A DNA stretch of 57,276 nucleotides from the NCBI GenBank assembly GCA_016286145.1, contig JAEESD010000002.1, positions 1-57,276 on the forward strand, read 5' to 3'. Below, piece after piece: positions 10,129-47,123 of this stretch; within the stretch, counting starts at the first letter, position 1, and every line of letters starts with the position of its first letter. The DNA comes from Bacteroidales bacterium (GTDB lineage Bacteria > Bacteroidota > Bacteroidia > Bacteroidales > UBA932). The notes below the pieces were generated by a model. The model had not been told where the DNA came from and ran no database searches. It saw nothing but the letters and a program-made list of their open reading frames with translations. The position numbers and the translations under genes were made by a program.

Positions 10129-12218
10129 AACCCCAGAGACGAGGCAGAAAGACAGTTCAGAAACGCAGAAGAAAGGCGGGAAAAACCGTCTTTCCGCAAT
10201 TCGTCGGCAAGGTTCAGATGACCCGTGAGGGCTATGTGTTCGTAGTCATCGACGGGGAAGACGACGATGTGTTTGTCCGCGCGGCGAAGACGCGCGGGGC
10301 GCTCAACGGCGACACGGTGCGTGTCGCCGTCACCAAAGCCCCGCGCGCGGGGGGCCGCGCGAAAGCGCTCGCCGGCCAGGCGGCCAGAGGCGAGCGTCGC
10401 GAAGGCGAGATTGTAGAGATCATCAAACGCTCCGAAAAACCTTTCGTAGGAGTATTCCATATGGTCGGAGCCCACGCCTGGGTCCTGATGCAGAGCCGCT
10501 TTATGCCCTACGACATCGAGGTCGACGGGCAGGAGGCTTTGGCTCTCGGCGCCCAGACCGGCTACAAGGTTGCCGCGCGGGTAGAAGGCTGGAACCGCGG
10601 TGAGAACTGTCCGTATGGCCACGTAGTCGACGTACTTGGCGCCCCCGGCGCGAACGAGACCGAGATGCACGCGATCCTGGCCGAGTTCAACCTCCCGTAC
10701 CGCTTCGAAAAGGAGGTGGAGAATGCGGCAGACAAGATTTCCGAAAAGATTACCGCTGAGGACCTTGCCGAGAGAAAGGACTTCCGCAATACTTTCACCT
10801 TTACTATAGACCCGGCAGACGCGAAGGACTTCGACGATGCGCTTTCGTTCCGCCCGCTGGAGAATGGGAACTATGAGGTGGGCGTCCATATCGCGGACGT
10901 GTCCTATTATGTAAAGCCCGGCTCGCCCGTGGACAAGGAGGCCCAGGACAGGGGAACCTCTGTGTATCTGGTAGACCGCACGGTCCCGATGCTCCCGGAG
11001 AAGCTCTGCAACAAGCTCTGCTCGCTCCGTCCCCACGAAGACAAGCTCACCTTCTCGGCCGTGTTCGAGATGACCGCAGACGCGAAAGTCCGCAAGCGCT
11101 GGTTCGGCCGTACTGTCATCAACTCCGACTTCCGCCTGGACTACAATCAGGCGCAGGCGATAATCAAGACCCCCGATCAGGTCGGGGGTGACGGTCCTGT
11201 CATGGTAGATCAGGTCGTGGGTGACGATCCTGTCATGCCCGACTCCGATCGGGCATCTTCCGAGCTCGCGACCGCGCTCCGCACCCTCATGTCCATGGCC
11301 CTGATCCTGAAATCCCGCCGCCAGAAGGCCGGTGCGATCGATTTCGACCGCCCGGAGATGAAGGTGAAGTGCGACGAGTTCGGCAAGCCGCTCGAGATAT
11401 ATCAGGTCCACTCCTTCGAGGCTAACTGGCTGATCGAGGAGTTTATGTTGCTGGCGAACCGCAGCGTCGCGGAATTCGTCTCCGGGAAGGGCAAGACCTT
11501 CGTCTATCGCGTCCACGACACCCCGAACGAAGCGAAGCTCGATAGCCTGCGCGTGTTCGCGAAGAGTATGGGCTATAAGATGGACGGCGCCCTCGAGGGT
11601 AAGGCGGTCTCTTCGACTCTCAACGACCTTCTCACCCGCTCAGACGGCAAACCGGAAGGCTCGGCTTTCCGCGAAATCGCCCTCCGGGCTATGGCCAAGG
11701 CCAAATACAGTGTCGACAACATCGGCCATTTCGGCCTCGCGTTCGCCGATTACACCCATTTCACCTCGCCAATCCGCCGCTACCCGGACCTGATGGTCCA
11801 CCGCCTGCTCGCGATCTACCTCGCGAACGGCAAGAGCCAGGACAAGGACTACTACGCCGCCCAGTGTGACCACGCCTCCGAACGCGAGGCTATCGCTACT
11901 GACGCCGAGCGCACCTCGATAAAGTACAAGCTCGTCGAGTATATGCAGGACCACATCGGCGAAGAGTACGACGGCCACGTCTCCGGAGTCACCGAGTGGG
12001 GCATGTACGTCGAGATCGAACCTACCCACATCGAGGGCATGGTCCCTCTCCGCGAAATCAAGGGCGATTTCTTCGAATTCGAGGAAGACAAGTACCGCCT
12101 GCGCGGCCGCCGTACCCGCAAGATCTACCGCCTGGGCGACTCCGTCCGCATCCGCGTCTCCTCCGCCAACCTCGAGCAGCGCCTCCTGGATTTCGAACTC
12201 CTCGATTCGGAAGAATAA
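10125..12218 (+). CDS. rnr: Ribonuclease R (contains an in-frame palindromic insertion, see findings)
   Basis: RNB catalytic motif TIDPADAKDFDDALS, HIADVSYYV, THFTSPIRRYPDLMVHRLL, C-terminal S1 domain. Overlaps manA by ATGA. Confidence 0.95.
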   Translation: MKPQRRGRKTVQKRRRKAGKTVFPQFVGKVQMTREGYVFVVIDGEDDDVFVRAAKTRGALNGDTVRVAVTKAPRAGGRAKALAGQAARGERREGEIVEIIKRSEKPFVGVFHMVGAHAWVLMQSRFMPYDIEVDGQEALALGAQTGYKVAARVEGWNRGENCPYGHVVDVLGAPGANETEMHAILAEFNLPYRFEKEVENAADKISEKITAEDLAERKDFRNTFTFTIDPADAKDFDDALSFRPLENGNYEVGVHIADVSYYVKPGSPVDKEAQDRGTSVYLVDRTVPMLPEKLCNKLCSLRPHEDKLTFSAVFEMTADAKVRKRWFGRTVINSDFRLDYNQAQAIIKTPDQVGGDGPVMVDQVVGDDPVMPDSDRASSELATALRTLMSMALILKSRRQKAGAIDFDRPEMKVKCDEFGKPLEIYQVHSFEANWLIEEFMLLANRSVAEFVSGKGKTFVYRVHDTPNEAKLDSLRVFAKSMGYKMDGALEGKAVSSTLNDLLTRSDGKPEGSAFREIALRAMAKAKYSVDNIGHFGLAFADYTHFTSPIRRYPDLMVHRLLAIYLANGKSQDKDYYAAQCDHASEREAIATDAERTSIKYKLVEYMQDHIGEEYDGHVSGVTEWGMYVEIEPTHIEGMVPLREIKGDFFEFEEDKYRLRGRRTRKIYRLGDSVRIRVSSANLEQRLLDFELLDSEE
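11168..11257 (+). repeat. Composite palindromic repeat array inside rnr (two 33-bp tandem units plus palindrome), translated in frame
   Basis: Read directly: ACCCCCGA-tcagg-TCGGGGGT (11169-11189); 33-bp direct repeat 11175-11207 / 11208-11240; GTCATGCCCGACTCCGATCGGGCATC (11232-11257). Confidence 0.85.
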
Positions 12219-12272
12219 TCTTTTCTGCAACGAAAGCGGTGCGGGTCGCATCTATATTGCAGTTTTTGCAAT

Positions 12273-13547
12273 ATGGATATGAAAAAAGCAATAAATAAGA
12301 TTTTGGCCGTTGCGGCGGGAGCCGTGATGGCTTTTTCGTGTTCCGCTGATATGGAGGGAATATTTGATGGATGGGCAGCGAAGGACGGAGGGTATGATTA
12401 TGATGGCGCAGAGGGGATGTCAGAGCCCTCTGGAGCGGGAGAAGGAGAGAATAACGGAAACACAAATGCCGGATTGCTGACTGCCGGCGAGTGGAATGAT
12501 CTCGACAACTGGCAGTTCTGGGGACAGCTGATGCTCAGCCAGGGCGATGGTAAGACAGAGGAGGTAGAAGACGGCGAGTGGTACGAAGGAGACGGATCGT
12601 TCTATCAGTACTGTCCTCATTGGGGATTCTATACGAATAACAGAGTCGCTGTTAAAGTCACTAACGAAGGCGCTCCCGCAGCGGGAGTGAATGTCATTCT
12701 CAGCGTAGACAATACTCCTGTCTGGACAGCCGTTACCGATAATCTGGGAATGGCGAACTGCTGGATTAATCTTTATACTGAAGGTGGCCTTTCCGAAACA
12801 GCGAAATTATCTATCAAAGTCGGTGGAATTGACCAACCGGAGGCGCCAGTGGTTACAAAATGGTCTTCCGAGGAGACAGTATACAATGAATATGAAGTGC
12901 CGAACAGCTTTACGGCCCGTACGGCAGACATCGCATTCTTTGTCGACGCTACCGGTTCGATGGGAGATGAGATCGACTTCCTCAAGAGCGATCTGATCGA
13001 CATCTTCAAGAAGGTGGAAAAACTTCAGAGCGGAACTGAAATCCGTACTGCCGCCCTCTTCTATCGCGACGATGGAGATGAGTATGTTACAAAACAGAAA
13101 GACTTCACAAAAGATATCAAGTCGGTATCAGACTATGTAGGAAAGCAGTCTGCCTCCGGTGGCGGAGACTTCCCGGAGGCGGTACATTCCGCTCTTGAGG
13201 CAGGACTTCAGAATCTTTCCTGGAACGAAGGAGCGCGCAGCAAGATAGCCTTTATGCTTCTTGATGCTCCCGCCCACCACAATCTCAATGTGATCAACTC
13301 CCTTCATAAGAGCATTGAAATGTATGCGAAGAAGGGTATCAAGATTATCCCGGTGGCGGCCAGCGGTGTAGACAAGAACACCGAATTCATGCTCCGTTTC
13401 TTCGCGATCGCTACAGGCGGAACCTATGTGTTCCTTACCAACGACAGCGGTATCGGCGGAGACCACATCCAGGCTTCGGTCGGAGAGTACGAGGTTGAGC
13501 AACTAAACGATCTTATCGTCCGCCTGATTGACAAGTATCTTGAATAA
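12273..13547 (+). CDS. VWA domain-containing lipoprotein
   Basis: Lipobox AFSC; MIDAS-type DATGSMGDE; vWA fold. Start at 12273 or 12279 (MKKAINKILAVAAGAVMAFSC). Confidence 0.8.
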   Translation: MDMKKAINKILAVAAGAVMAFSCSADMEGIFDGWAAKDGGYDYDGAEGMSEPSGAGEGENNGNTNAGLLTAGEWNDLDNWQFWGQLMLSQGDGKTEEVEDGEWYEGDGSFYQYCPHWGFYTNNRVAVKVTNEGAPAAGVNVILSVDNTPVWTAVTDNLGMANCWINLYTEGGLSETAKLSIKVGGIDQPEAPVVTKWSSEETVYNEYEVPNSFTARTADIAFFVDATGSMGDEIDFLKSDLIDIFKKVEKLQSGTEIRTAALFYRDDGDEYVTKQKDFTKDIKSVSDYVGKQSASGGGDFPEAVHSALEAGLQNLSWNEGARSKIAFMLLDAPAHHNLNVINSLHKSIEMYAKKGIKIIPVAASGVDKNTEFMLRFFAIATGGTYVFLTNDSGIGGDHIQASVGEYEVEQLNDLIVRLIDKYLE

Positions 13548-13568
13548 AATGCGTATCTTCGCTACCGT

Positions 13569-14513
13569 ATGAAAAGCGGAATCGCTACGGTAGTCAAGAA
13601 CGCGGGCAGTCACTTCCTTCTGAGTGAACTTCCCCAGTGGCGTCTTTTCCCTGCAGTATTGCGGGGAAAAGTGCGTTTGGAGGCAGGTACATCTACTAAT
13701 CCTGTAGCTGTAGGCGATCGCGTACGTTACGAATTTGAAACAGAACCGGACGCCGAACATCCCGCCGTAATTACCGAAATCCTCGACAGAAAGAACCATC
13801 TTGTCCGAAAGTCGGCCAATCTTTCGCGTCAGTCCCACGTCATCGCCGCCAATCTCGATATGGCCTTGCTGGTGGTGTCGCTCTATTTTCCGGAAGTGAA
13901 ACTGCCGTTCCTGGACAGGCAGCTCGTCACCTGCGAGATGTTCAAGATCCCCGCTACGATAGTCCTCAACAAGGTAGATCTTTACCGCGAAGAGGCTTCT
14001 GAGGAATTTGAAAACTTCAAGTCTATCTATGCTAGGGCCGGCTATAGGGTACTGGAAACTTCGGCGAAAACCGGTGAAGGAGTAGACGAACTACGCCAGC
14101 TTTGTAAAGATCACCTCTGTCTTATAAGCGGTGAGTCGGGAGTCGGAAAATCCTCCCTCATCAAGGCCCTCGACCCGTCTCTTGATCCTAAAGTAGGAAA
14201 GATCAGCGCCGCTCATCTTCAGGGTAAACATACTACCTCCCTTTATGAGATGTATCCTCTCCGCAGTGGAGGTTACGTAATTGATACTCCCGGTCTTCGC
14301 GGCTTCGGCCTCTATGGGCTGGAGAAAGAGGAAATAGCGAAGTATTTCCCTGAGATGCTGCGTCTGGCAGACAACTGCAAGTTCATCCCTTGTACCCATA
14401 CCCACGAACCCGACTGCGCAATTAAAGCCGCGGTCGAAGCCGGCGAAATAGCCCCCGAACGATATAACTCTTACCTCGGGATGCTTGAAGACGACAGTAA
14501 GTTCCGTAAATAA
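13569..14513 (+). CDS. rsgA: Ribosome small subunit-dependent GTPase A
   Basis: GESGVGKSSLIKAL, DTPGLRGFGL, permuted G motifs, C-terminal Zn-type CKFIPCTHTHEPDCAIK. Confidence 0.95.
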   Translation: MKSGIATVVKNAGSHFLLSELPQWRLFPAVLRGKVRLEAGTSTNPVAVGDRVRYEFETEPDAEHPAVITEILDRKNHLVRKSANLSRQSHVIAANLDMALLVVSLYFPEVKLPFLDRQLVTCEMFKIPATIVLNKVDLYREEASEEFENFKSIYARAGYRVLETSAKTGEGVDELRQLCKDHLCLISGESGVGKSSLIKALDPSLDPKVGKISAAHLQGKHTTSLYEMYPLRSGGYVIDTPGLRGFGLYGLEKEEIAKYFPEMLRLADNCKFIPCTHTHEPDCAIKAAVEAGEIAPERYNSYLGMLEDDSKFRK

Positions 14514-15883
14514 TGAACACCCTGAACAAGGAAATACTCCGGCTGGCGCTTCCGAGCATACTCGCGAATATAACGGTGCCGCTGGTTGGTATCGTAGACA
14601 CCGCCGTGGCCGGTCATCTGGTTGGGACGGAGGCGGCCGTGGCTATAGGCGCGATCTCCGTGGGGGCGATGTTTTTCTCGCTGCTCTATTGGAACTTCAG
14701 CTTCCTGAGGACGGGGACTGGCGGGCTCACTGCCCAGGCTTATGGGGCCGGAGATAACCATGAGGTGGCGAAGATCTTCTGGCGCGGGATGGCGCTGTCT
14801 GCCCTTATTGCGCTGGTGATTCTCGCGCTTCAGTGGCCGTTTCTTAAACTGGCCGTCTTCTGTACCCAGGCTACCGCGGAGGTGGAATCGCTCGCCTCGC
14901 AGTATTTCCTCATCCGAATCTGGGCTGCGCCGGCGACTATCGCGCTGATGACCTTCAGCGGCTGGTTTGTGGGGATGCAGGATTCGATGAGCTCGATGTG
15001 GAAGGACCTTATCGTCAACGGGGTGAACATAGTCGCGAGCATCATCCTTGGCCGCGGGATCGGCAGCTGGCCGGGGCTTGGCTTTGCCGGCATCGCGCTC
15101 GGAACGGTAATCGCGCAGTACTGCGGCCTGCTGTTCTGCGTCCTCGTCTGCCTCGTCAAGTATGGCCATATCCTCGGCTCGTTCAAGCTCGGCGAACTTG
15201 GCCATGCTCTCAGCCGCAGCGAACTCGGCCCGTATATGAGGATGAACGGCAACCTGTTCCTGCGCTCGCTCTCGATGCTCGGCGTCTACATCGGCTATAC
15301 GCTCATCGCGACCACGATGGGTGATATGCTGCTCGCCTGCTCTTCCGTAATGATGCAGCTGCTGATGTTGTTCTCCTACTTCACGGACGGCTTCGCCTAC
15401 GCTGGCGAGGCGCTTGTCGGGCGCTTCATCGGTGCGCGCGACGCGGATTCGATGCGCCGCTCGGTGCGTTACGTGTTCGAATGGAGCATGGCGATAGCCG
15501 TGGGCTTTATCGGGCTCTATTGGGTCGGGGGAGTGCCGGTCCTGCGGCTGCTGACCTCCGATCCCGCGGTCGTGGAGGCATGTACGGCCTTTCTACCATG
15601 GCTGATTCTGATGCCGCCGGTCGGATGTGCGGCCTTTACCTGGGACGGTGTTTTTCTCGGGGCCACCGCCTCGCGCCCCCTTCGCGACTCCTGCCTCTGG
15701 GCTTTCGTCGCTTTCATCGCGGTCTGGTTCGCGCTGAAATGGTTCGCGCTCGGCGGCCCGTCCGTCATGCCCGACCCCGATCGGGCATCCTTGCCCCTTC
15801 ACCTTTTGATGGTCGCCTATTTCGCCCATCTGCTGGTCCGCACCCTCTGGCTTAGCTTCAAGTGGAAGGACTATCGTCGTTGA
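14513..15883 (+). CDS. MATE family efflux transporter
   Basis: About 12 hydrophobic segments, LPSILANITVPLVGIVDTAVAGHLG-like N-terminus typical of MATE/DinF. TAATG overlap with rsgA. Confidence 0.9.
   Translation: MNTLNKEILRLALPSILANITVPLVGIVDTAVAGHLVGTEAAVAIGAISVGAMFFSLLYWNFSFLRTGTGGLTAQAYGAGDNHEVAKIFWRGMALSALIALVILALQWPFLKLAVFCTQATAEVESLASQYFLIRIWAAPATIALMTFSGWFVGMQDSMSSMWKDLIVNGVNIVASIILGRGIGSWPGLGFAGIALGTVIAQYCGLLFCVLVCLVKYGHILGSFKLGELGHALSRSELGPYMRMNGNLFLRSLSMLGVYIGYTLIATTMGDMLLACSSVMMQLLMLFSYFTDGFAYAGEALVGRFIGARDADSMRRSVRYVFEWSMAIAVGFIGLYWVGGVPVLRLLTSDPAVVEACTAFLPWLILMPPVGCAAFTWDGVFLGATASRPLRDSCLWAFVAFIAVWFALKWFALGGPSVMPDPDRASLPLHLLMVAYFAHLLVRTLWLSFKWKDYRR
15764..15789 (+). repeat. 26-bp palindromic element inside the MATE gene, 25/26 identical to rnr 11232-11257
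   Basis: GTCATGCCCGACCCCGATCGGGCATC; arms TGCCCGA/TCGGGCA with a 6-nt loop; translated in the same frame as in rnr. Confidence 0.85.
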
Positions 15884-15904
15884 CTTAATTTGTAATATTA
15901 TATC

Positions 15905-15912
15905 TATCTTTG
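15905..15912 (+). promoter_or_regulatory. Bacteroidota-type -7 box TATCTTTG, flanked by a 10-bp inverted repeat (15890-15899 / 15924-15933)
   Basis: Exact TAnnTTTG match 21 nt before ATG 15933. Confidence 0.65.
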
Positions 15913-15932
15913 ACAAATAGCGAAATATTACA

Positions 15933-16490
15933 ATGCGACGATTAATACTCTTATTATTTCCTCTAGTGTTATTTGGCTGCACTATACCTGATCCGACCAA
16001 TGAAATGCCGGACCAGACAGGAGGAGATGACGTGTCAAATATCGAGCGTACCCCGCAAGAAATTGTGGATGAATTCAATGGGAAAGGGTACGACTTTTCC
16101 CTTATGTATCAGGATGGTCATTATTCTGTAGCTCCTAATGTAACAATATCGGGGGAAGAGATTAAGAATATATTAGAGGGTTATAGTTGGCGAGAGAGAC
16201 CTGATGGCGTCATCAATTTAGATGGCTTGCTTCTCGATTCGTCTTTTGCCGGCGATGCTGCTGTGACATATTCTTTTTTTGACAATAAGGTATCGATTTA
16301 TATTAAAGTAGTAGTCCCAGGAATAGAAGATACGGAAGAGGAAAAGAAGGTGACTTTTGAGGATAACATGATCAAAATAGGAAAGGATGTTTTTCTCGTT
16401 TGTTCTATTGAAGAGAGTATCATTCATTACATATTAAAAACAAACTATGAGAATCGGTGGCTTTACATGAGCCTGCGACGCGTACAATAG
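15933..16490 (+). CDS. Small putative lipoprotein, unknown function
   Basis: Lipobox LFGC; AT-rich relative to neighbours. Confidence 0.65.
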   Translation: MRRLILLLFPLVLFGCTIPDPTNEMPDQTGGDDVSNIERTPQEIVDEFNGKGYDFSLMYQDGHYSVAPNVTISGEEIKNILEGYSWRERPDGVINLDGLLLDSSFAGDAAVTYSFFDNKVSIYIKVVVPGIEDTEEEKKVTFEDNMIKIGKDVFLVCSIEESIIHYILKTNYENRWLYMSLRRVQ

Positions 16491-44935: not shown

Positions 44936-44952
44936 CGGTTTCAGGGGGCTTC

Positions 44953-45015
44953 CTACAGCGCCTTGAGGATGATGCTTTCCATCACCTCGTAACCGGGAAG
45001 AGTAGGGTGAATCCC
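44953..45015 (-). pseudogene. 3'-terminal fragment (20 codons + stop) of a GDSL hydrolase, inverted relative to 46408..47073
   Basis: Minus strand reads GIHPTLPGYEVMESIILKAL*, identical to the C-terminus of the downstream GDSL protein; nucleotide differences are synonymous. Confidence 0.85.
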
Positions 45016-45039
45016 TTCCGCGGACGTCTCCTGCCCTTA

Positions 45040-46407: not shown

Positions 46408-47073
46408 ATGCGTAAACTAATAATCACCATCGCGGCAGCGATGCTGTCCGTCATCGGCCTTTCGGCCCAGAATTTCGTCCACTATCATTGGTTCGACGGC
46501 GAGAATTCCACCGTCCCCGCAGGAACCCGCGGCCGCGTCGTTTTCATGGGCGACTCCATCACCGAAGGCTGGGGAACGAAGGGAACTCCGGGCTTTTTCG
46601 ACAACGACAAGATGGTCGAGCGCGGCATCAGCGGCGAGGTGACAGCCCAGATGGTTCTCCGCTTCAGGCGTGACGTTATCGACCTTAAGCCCAAGACGGT
46701 CGTGATCCTCTGCGGATGCAACGATATCGCCCTCAATCAGGGCGAGTACAACGAAGACTATACCTTCGGAAACATAGTGACCATGGTCCAGCTCGCCAAG
46801 GCCAATAAGATCAAGCCCATAGTCTGTTCGGTCCTCCCGGCCGCCGCTTTCCCCTGGCGCCCGGAAGTCAAGGACTCATCCGAAAAAGTCGCGTCTCTCA
46901 ACGCCCGCCTGCGCGCCTACTGCGCTGAGAATCACATCAAGTACGTCGATTACTTCCCCGCGATGGTCGCCGAAGACGGCGTCTCTCTGAATCCCAACTA
47001 CACTAACGACGGAATTCACCCCACCCTTCCCGGTTACGAGGTGATGGAGAGCATCATCCTCAAGGCGCTGTAG
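46408..47073 (+). CDS. GDSL/SGNH-type esterase/lipase
   Basis: VVFMGDSITEGWG, CGCNDIALN, YTNDGIHPTLPGYEVM. Confidence 0.92.
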   Translation: MRKLIITIAAAMLSVIGLSAQNFVHYHWFDGENSTVPAGTRGRVVFMGDSITEGWGTKGTPGFFDNDKMVERGISGEVTAQMVLRFRRDVIDLKPKTVVILCGCNDIALNQGEYNEDYTFGNIVTMVQLAKANKIKPIVCSVLPAAAFPWRPEVKDSSEKVASLNARLRAYCAENHIKYVDYFPAMVAEDGVSLNPNYTNDGIHPTLPGYEVMESIILKAL

Positions 47074-47123
47074 GAAGCCCCGTGGGCATATAATTTGCAG
47101 GGACATAGTGAAAAAATATCACT

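Follow-up and report, generated by a model that had tools for sequence, protein, structure and literature searches.

CGTC-tagged palindromic repeats inside conserved proteins of a rumen Bacteroidales clade, and site sharing between two repeat families

The CGTC-tagged REP super-family, which includes Rickettsia RPE-4 and RPE-6, has been described as lacking a dedicated transposase. Two Xanthomonas species carry different REPs at nearly the same position of recB, and it has been suggested that CGTC families may be dying out (Di Nocera et al. 2013, PMC3733652). Other Rickettsia palindromic elements, such as RPE-1, were reported by Ogata and Claverie and are reviewed in PMC2229807. REP classes can also turn over: in the orthoswitch, related strains differ in REP class, and a new class spreads as the old one declines (Nunvar et al. 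2013, PMC3686654). In the REPIN/RAYT systems of gamma-proteobacteria, an inverted pair of REPs is the likely moving unit (PMC3116915, PMC8266576).

We analyzed a 57,276-nt stretch (the window) from a rumen Bacteroidales genome in which a 26-nt palindrome occurs in two unrelated genes. The palindrome belongs, as one unit, to a CGTC-tagged REP family here termed type A (GTCATnCCCGAcctGATCGGGn'ATC). Type A resembles the described CGTC REPs in its GTC tag, 8-bp stem, 5-nt loop and inverted pairs, in having in-frame copies, 20-30 residues long, within conserved genes, and in having no transposase gene flanked by repeats (PMC3733652). CGTC REPs are defined by a stem of 8-9 bp that starts with A-T pairs and a loop of 4-5 nt; the type A 25-mers have an 8-bp stem and a 5-nt loop. 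By description, Rickettsia palindromic elements are likewise palindromic repeats in frame in conserved proteins, but the reviewed ones measure 105-146 bp and are larger than the short tagged hairpins studied here (PMC2229807). The original prediction had noted a resemblance to REP and Rickettsia elements, and a tagged hairpin family with in-frame copies in conserved proteins agrees with it. CGTC repeats were, however, already known in Bacteroidetes and coding ones in Rickettsia and other bacteria (PMC3733652). Compared with that work, the present data concern a rumen Bacteroidales genus, quantify the frame bias, and show two REP families sharing 11 of 19 sites across sister species. Intragenic REPs and REP-class switching are already known; what is new, as far as the literature shows, is the lineage, a frame bias quantified for two REP families, and same-site turnover inside conserved proteins.

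All genomes compared were metagenome-assembled (MAGs). The source genome, G000, comprises 1.79 Mb in 193 contigs, with estimated completeness of 91% and contamination of 7.5%. Its close clade, chosen by a genus-wide rnr search of 400 genomes together with a named collection, consists of G391 (probably RUG489), G387, and MAGs that are probably from red deer (G236), yak (G266) and water buffalo (G006).

Structure and dispersal of the type A element

REP copies in G000 were gathered by a pattern search and from the stretches around matches. The whole-genome search proposed with the original prediction showed an element dispersed across G000, intergenic copies included: about 35 units in 25 clusters, 10 of which were inverted pairs. 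Roughly half of the units lay inside conserved genes. Aligned copies shared an unpaired GTC tag, an 8-bp stem, a short loop (5 nt in 25-mers, 6 nt in 26-mers) and an ATC tail. GTC was present in 31/31 distinct 25-nt units aligned, starting with GTC being a requirement for inclusion. The third stem pair was C-G, G-C or T-A, depending on the copy. Stem changes were compensatory: among the 31 distinct 25-mers, 24 cells had both sides of a pair changed, vs 6.7 in shuffles (0/500 reached the observed value), and 95.2% of stem cells were paired, vs at most 50% in slid controls.

The base before GTC in type A (n=35) was C in 14 units, T in 10, A in 9 and G in 2, so that a leading C is a minority; the defining 5' tag of CGTC REPs is unpaired CGTC, with TGTC and CCTC as variants. 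ATC was followed by T in 31/35 type A units, giving a tail of CT where the CGTC-REP consensus has CCA. An inverted pair of 54 nt, GTCATGGCC...GGGGGTGAC (GTCATGGCCGACTCCGATCGGCCATCTAAGACCCCCGATCAGGTCGGGGGTGAC), was identical at three unrelated G000 loci (L017, L031 and L032), which suggests that such a pair can move as one unit. Searches of plasmid records yielded weak partial matches alone, in alpha-proteobacteria.

Elsewhere in the window, positions 44942-45018 and 47008-47084 form a 77-nt inverted repeat, 92% complementary, with arms 2 kb apart.

Insertions in rnr, MATE and other genes

The two 26-mers predicted in rnr and in a MATE efflux gene were located to the nucleotide (Table 1), and they are read in the same frame in the two unrelated hosts, differing in one residue. 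The 20-bp core pattern had 2 exact matches in the window, vs 0.06 expected from shuffles with up to 3 mismatches. Ordinary direct repeats were considered as a source and rejected, since those present in the window leave the 26-mers unexplained. The rnr copy, predicted as a lone palindrome, is a genuine 26-mer but proved to close a 90-bp array of three units. The array begins with an inverted 25-nt unit (GACCCCCGATCAGGTCGGGGGTGAC), the exact core of which is dispersed in G000. Its middle unit probably arose by duplication of the left unit together with its linker, followed by decay; GATCAGGTCGGGGGTGACGGTCCT and GATCAGGTCGTGGGTGACGATCCT differ at 2/24 positions. The in-frame insert amounts to about 30 residues (TPDQVGGDGPVMVDQVVGDDPVMPDSDRAS).

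Table 1. Genes and REP units of the window (positions refer to the window)
Feature	Position	Strand	Basis or remark
rnr (RNase R), 697 aa	10125..12218	+	Pfam RNB, E 1.7e-109; CSD2, OB_RNB and S1 domains
Whole rnr REP array	11168..11257	+	Ortholog comparison; between two helices
Type A 25-nt REP unit, inverted	11168..11192	-	GTCACCCCCGACCTGATCGGGGGTC on minus strand; read xTPDQVGGD
Degenerate middle unit	11199..11225		GTCATGGTAGATCAGGTCGTGGGTGAC; seen directly in sequence
Type A 26-nt REP unit	11232..11257	+	Right end of rnr array; read VMPDSDRAS
MATE efflux family gene, 456 aa	14513..15883	+	Pfam MatE, E 1.3e-35
Type A 26-nt REP unit	15764..15789	+	MATE loop between last two predicted TM helices; read VMPDPDRAS

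AF2 models, which cover the rnr and MATE hosts and rest on shallow alignments (19 and 7 sequences), showed both inserts in disordered or inter-helix loops. Residues 352-376 of RNase R had pLDDT below 50 and lay between helices 340-348 and 375-401, and the MATE insert lay between helices 388-413 and 427-454. Other genes carrying in-gene copies include those for DnaX (after domain III), FtsK (before the alpha domain), urocanase, TldD, an amino-acid kinase, GH92, zinc-ribbon proteins, FHA proteins and a hybrid sensor; an ABC transporter gene carries a copy in G006.

rnr orthologues were found in 388/400 genomes of the genus. A 97%-identical relative had an empty rnr site, indicating that the array is an insertion that replaced the native loop. 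This loop, AEPDQPAGESFGCTP (KAEPDQPAGESFGC, KAEPDQPAGESFGCTPEL), is kept in G391 and G387, and G266 has nearly the same one (KAEPDQPAGESFGCTAEL). The site is filled by type A in G000, by a type A pair in G236 and by a different, type B REP pair in G006. A decayed REP was considered as the origin of PDQ in the native loop (AEPDQPAGES) and rejected because outgroup loops (KAEGTDEQIASS) can be aligned with this loop. In MATE, the type A unit is present in G000 and RUG489, both reading VMPDPDRAS; G236 has a decayed type A copy that is read in a different frame, G266 what may be a short remnant, and G387 an unrelated long loop. G006 carries a type B unit there (GTCATTCCGAGCGCAGCGAAGGAATC, VIPSAAKES) of the same length and frame as type A. 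The outgroups have no insert. In the empty/filled pairs, a target-site duplication or clean footprint was sought, and none was readable, the flanks having diverged or been replaced.

The ortholog alignment that the original prediction called for, with native or empty rnr sites in close relatives and no MATE insert in outgroups, indicates that both inserts are derived. A peptide ancestral to each protein, which would have refuted the original prediction by leaving orthologues without any gap at these positions, is not what the comparison shows. That the two peptides are ancestral and alike by convergence or chance is consistent with the variable length of the rnr loop across the genus; the empty sites and the nucleotide-level dispersal of the repeat, intergenic copies included, make this account highly implausible.

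The rnr loop of two more distant genomes, G009 and G015 (L050 and L049), holds another, longer palindromic repeat of about 110 nt, multi-stem and ending in CCG[A/C]GGGTGGCACG, which is dispersed elsewhere in both genomes as well (L329-L337).

A different REP family fills many type A sites in a sister species

In G006, a second palindrome, type B (GTCATTCCGAGCGAAGCGAAGGAATC), was found in 55 units; in G000 none appeared even when 3 mismatches were allowed. Type A had a single close match in G006 and was present in sampled stretches of G391, G236, G387 and G266, so that type A is probably ancestral in the clade. T preceded GTC in 55/55 type B units and followed ATC in 51/55. In a flank-anchored comparison, 11/19 alignable G000 type A sites held a G006-type REP. 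G006-type REPs numbered 11 in 4.06 kb of site sequence vs 1 in 27.7 kb of flank, a comparison in which some G006 loci had been chosen for carrying type B and the flank control drew on those same stretches. Additional G006 sites correspond to type A sites of G236, G391, G387 or G266. These findings show that a different REP family fills many type A sites in G006, in the same frame.

The reading frame of each unit was assigned by choosing the overlying ORF from codon usage computed without the unit. Although all three frames of type B are open, 17/19 sense units were read in the GTC-first frame as VIPS[E/A]AKES (binomial probability with 1/3, about 6e-7). The GTC-first frame was also used by 15/16 sense type A 26-mers (VM[P/A]DxDR[A/P]S), and 19/20 antisense 25-mers read xPDQVGxD. 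The exceptions in these two type A classes come from one G391 locus, and the ORF called there is probably not the right one. Some orthologous sites are counted here, as are pairs with both of their members, so that not all events are independent; the type B series consists mostly of distinct genes. True exceptions occurred in other classes (L009, L015 and L023). The single translational phase originally proposed thus stands as a strong bias towards one frame, but not as the only phase.

Frame conservation across two REP families with different cores might reflect a host function of the hairpins in mRNA stability, termination or an encoded acidic peptide, and the compensated stems and intergenic copies could be read the same way. 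However, close relatives have empty orthologues with native loops, the host proteins are unrelated, the peptide sequence differs by REP family, and positions 11000-16000 matched none of the Rfam 15 covariance models at E 1 or better. We therefore regard maintenance for host function as very unlikely.

As in the orthoswitch, related genomes here carry different REP classes. In that model, however, old REPs stay and decay, whereas the old type is almost absent from G006, where the new type sits at many of the same places; moreover, each class in the model has a cognate RAYT, while none was found here (PMC3686654).

One way to obtain the G006 pattern is rewriting in place: the sites were filled once in an ancestor, and the G006 stems were overwritten by type B, through conversion or excise-and-replace at the GTC/ATC ends, with position, frame and length kept. 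The 26-nt MATE unit is swapped with exact boundaries, and the site L027/L110 holds type A in three species and type B in G006. Dimer orientation is equal at sites 8, 17 (rnr), 18, 22 and L140, and unit orientation is equal also at MATE, L027/L110, L028/L155 and L035/L158; at the last of these the linker CTTCTGTCAT is shared as well. In contrast, the A and B dimers are reversed at sites 14, 15, 16, 19, L117 and L163, the nearest relative, G391, is empty at sites 5, 14, 15, 16 and 17, and three clade members keep the native rnr loop. Rewriting in place is unlikely on this evidence. The reversed pairs, together with the empty nearest relatives, argue for independent insertions into the same permissive place, and the comparison points to independent refilling of many sites. 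Our preferred reading is therefore that REPs inserted recurrently at sites that were permissive or already marked, accompanied by some recombination. That a newly active REP family prefers, or overwrites, sites marked by an older REP, keeping the loop frame and swapping the sequence, is put forward more tentatively.

Recombination itself could yield a patchy distribution if REP-carrying and REP-free alleles were exchanged between species. In the G387 rnr gene (L186/L165), the 3' half is about 95% identical to G000 and the 5' half about 80%, a mosaic that suggests recent homologous recombination between species. Beside the array, G000 reads AIIK, like G236 and G006 (SIIK), and G391 reads EVIK; L027 shows about 95% identity with G391 as well as with G236. 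Such mosaics in rnr indicate that part of the REP distribution may come from homologous recombination. As the main source of patchiness in place of transposition, however, recombination leaves unexplained both the different REP family at the same G006 sites and the identical 54-nt pairs at three unrelated G000 loci, and we consider it improbable. The same places, empty in some sister species and filled by a different palindrome in others, point to protein loops that mobile DNA fills again and again.

Additional tagged palindromes were seen in G006: GTCATTTCGAGC...GAGAAATC, GTCATCTCGACC...GAGAGATC and GTCATCCCGAGGAGCG...GACGAAGGGATC (L145, L297 and L155). They form the left partner of many type B pairs. 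Tandem half-REPs of about 21 nt, e.g. GTCATGCCCGACTCCTCTTCT or GTCATTCCGAGCTCCTCTCCT, lie in frame upstream of a full unit at L035, L158, L115, L134, L255 and L026, and their 5' half agrees with the REP type of their own genome.

Movement of REP copies and candidate mobilizers

The original prediction suggested looking for a RAYT-like transposase. Y1_Tnp (HUH) genes were present in 6/6 genomes, at 24 loci, but flanking by the element was not seen: none of the 24 loci in the six genomes had a transposase flanked by type A or type B REPs. At 3/24 loci, a type A-like unit lay within flanks of roughly 1.5 kb, on one side only in each case. REPIN/RAYT systems share with this clade the inverted pairs and the Y1/HUH genes; they differ in having a GTAG/GTRG tag, as opposed to GTC, and a RAYT gene flanked by cognate REPs, whereas the Y1_Tnp genes here are unflanked (PMC3116915, PMC8266576).

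We infer that a Y1/HUH transposase acts in trans as the REP mobilizer. Type A REPs would move as single units or inverted pairs; copies would spread as single-stranded hairpins through an unlinked, RAYT-like Y1/HUH enzyme, insertions that break proteins or are read in a bad frame would be lost, and permissive sites or existing REPs would be re-used once a new REP family becomes active. Taken as a whole, a CGTC-tagged REP family that has moved recently in this rumen Bacteroidales clade, served in trans by an unlinked Y1 transposase and re-using its sites, is the explanation we hold to be likely.

Presence/absence differences between near relatives suggest recent activity and bear on the published suggestion that CGTC families are going extinct (PMC3733652). 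With sites in RNase R, MATE, DnaX, FtsK and further proteins that are empty or filled by either palindrome, the clade constitutes a natural multi-species insertion experiment. It allows tests of how CGTC REPs move without a known transposase, of why a single frame survives, and of a possible guiding role of old copies for new insertions.

A Y1_Tnp gene of G000 adjoins an FAD-oxidoreductase gene (L043). The orthologous G006 locus (L150) aligns on both sides without the Y1_Tnp gene and carries a type B REP in the region coding for the oxidoreductase's C-terminal part.
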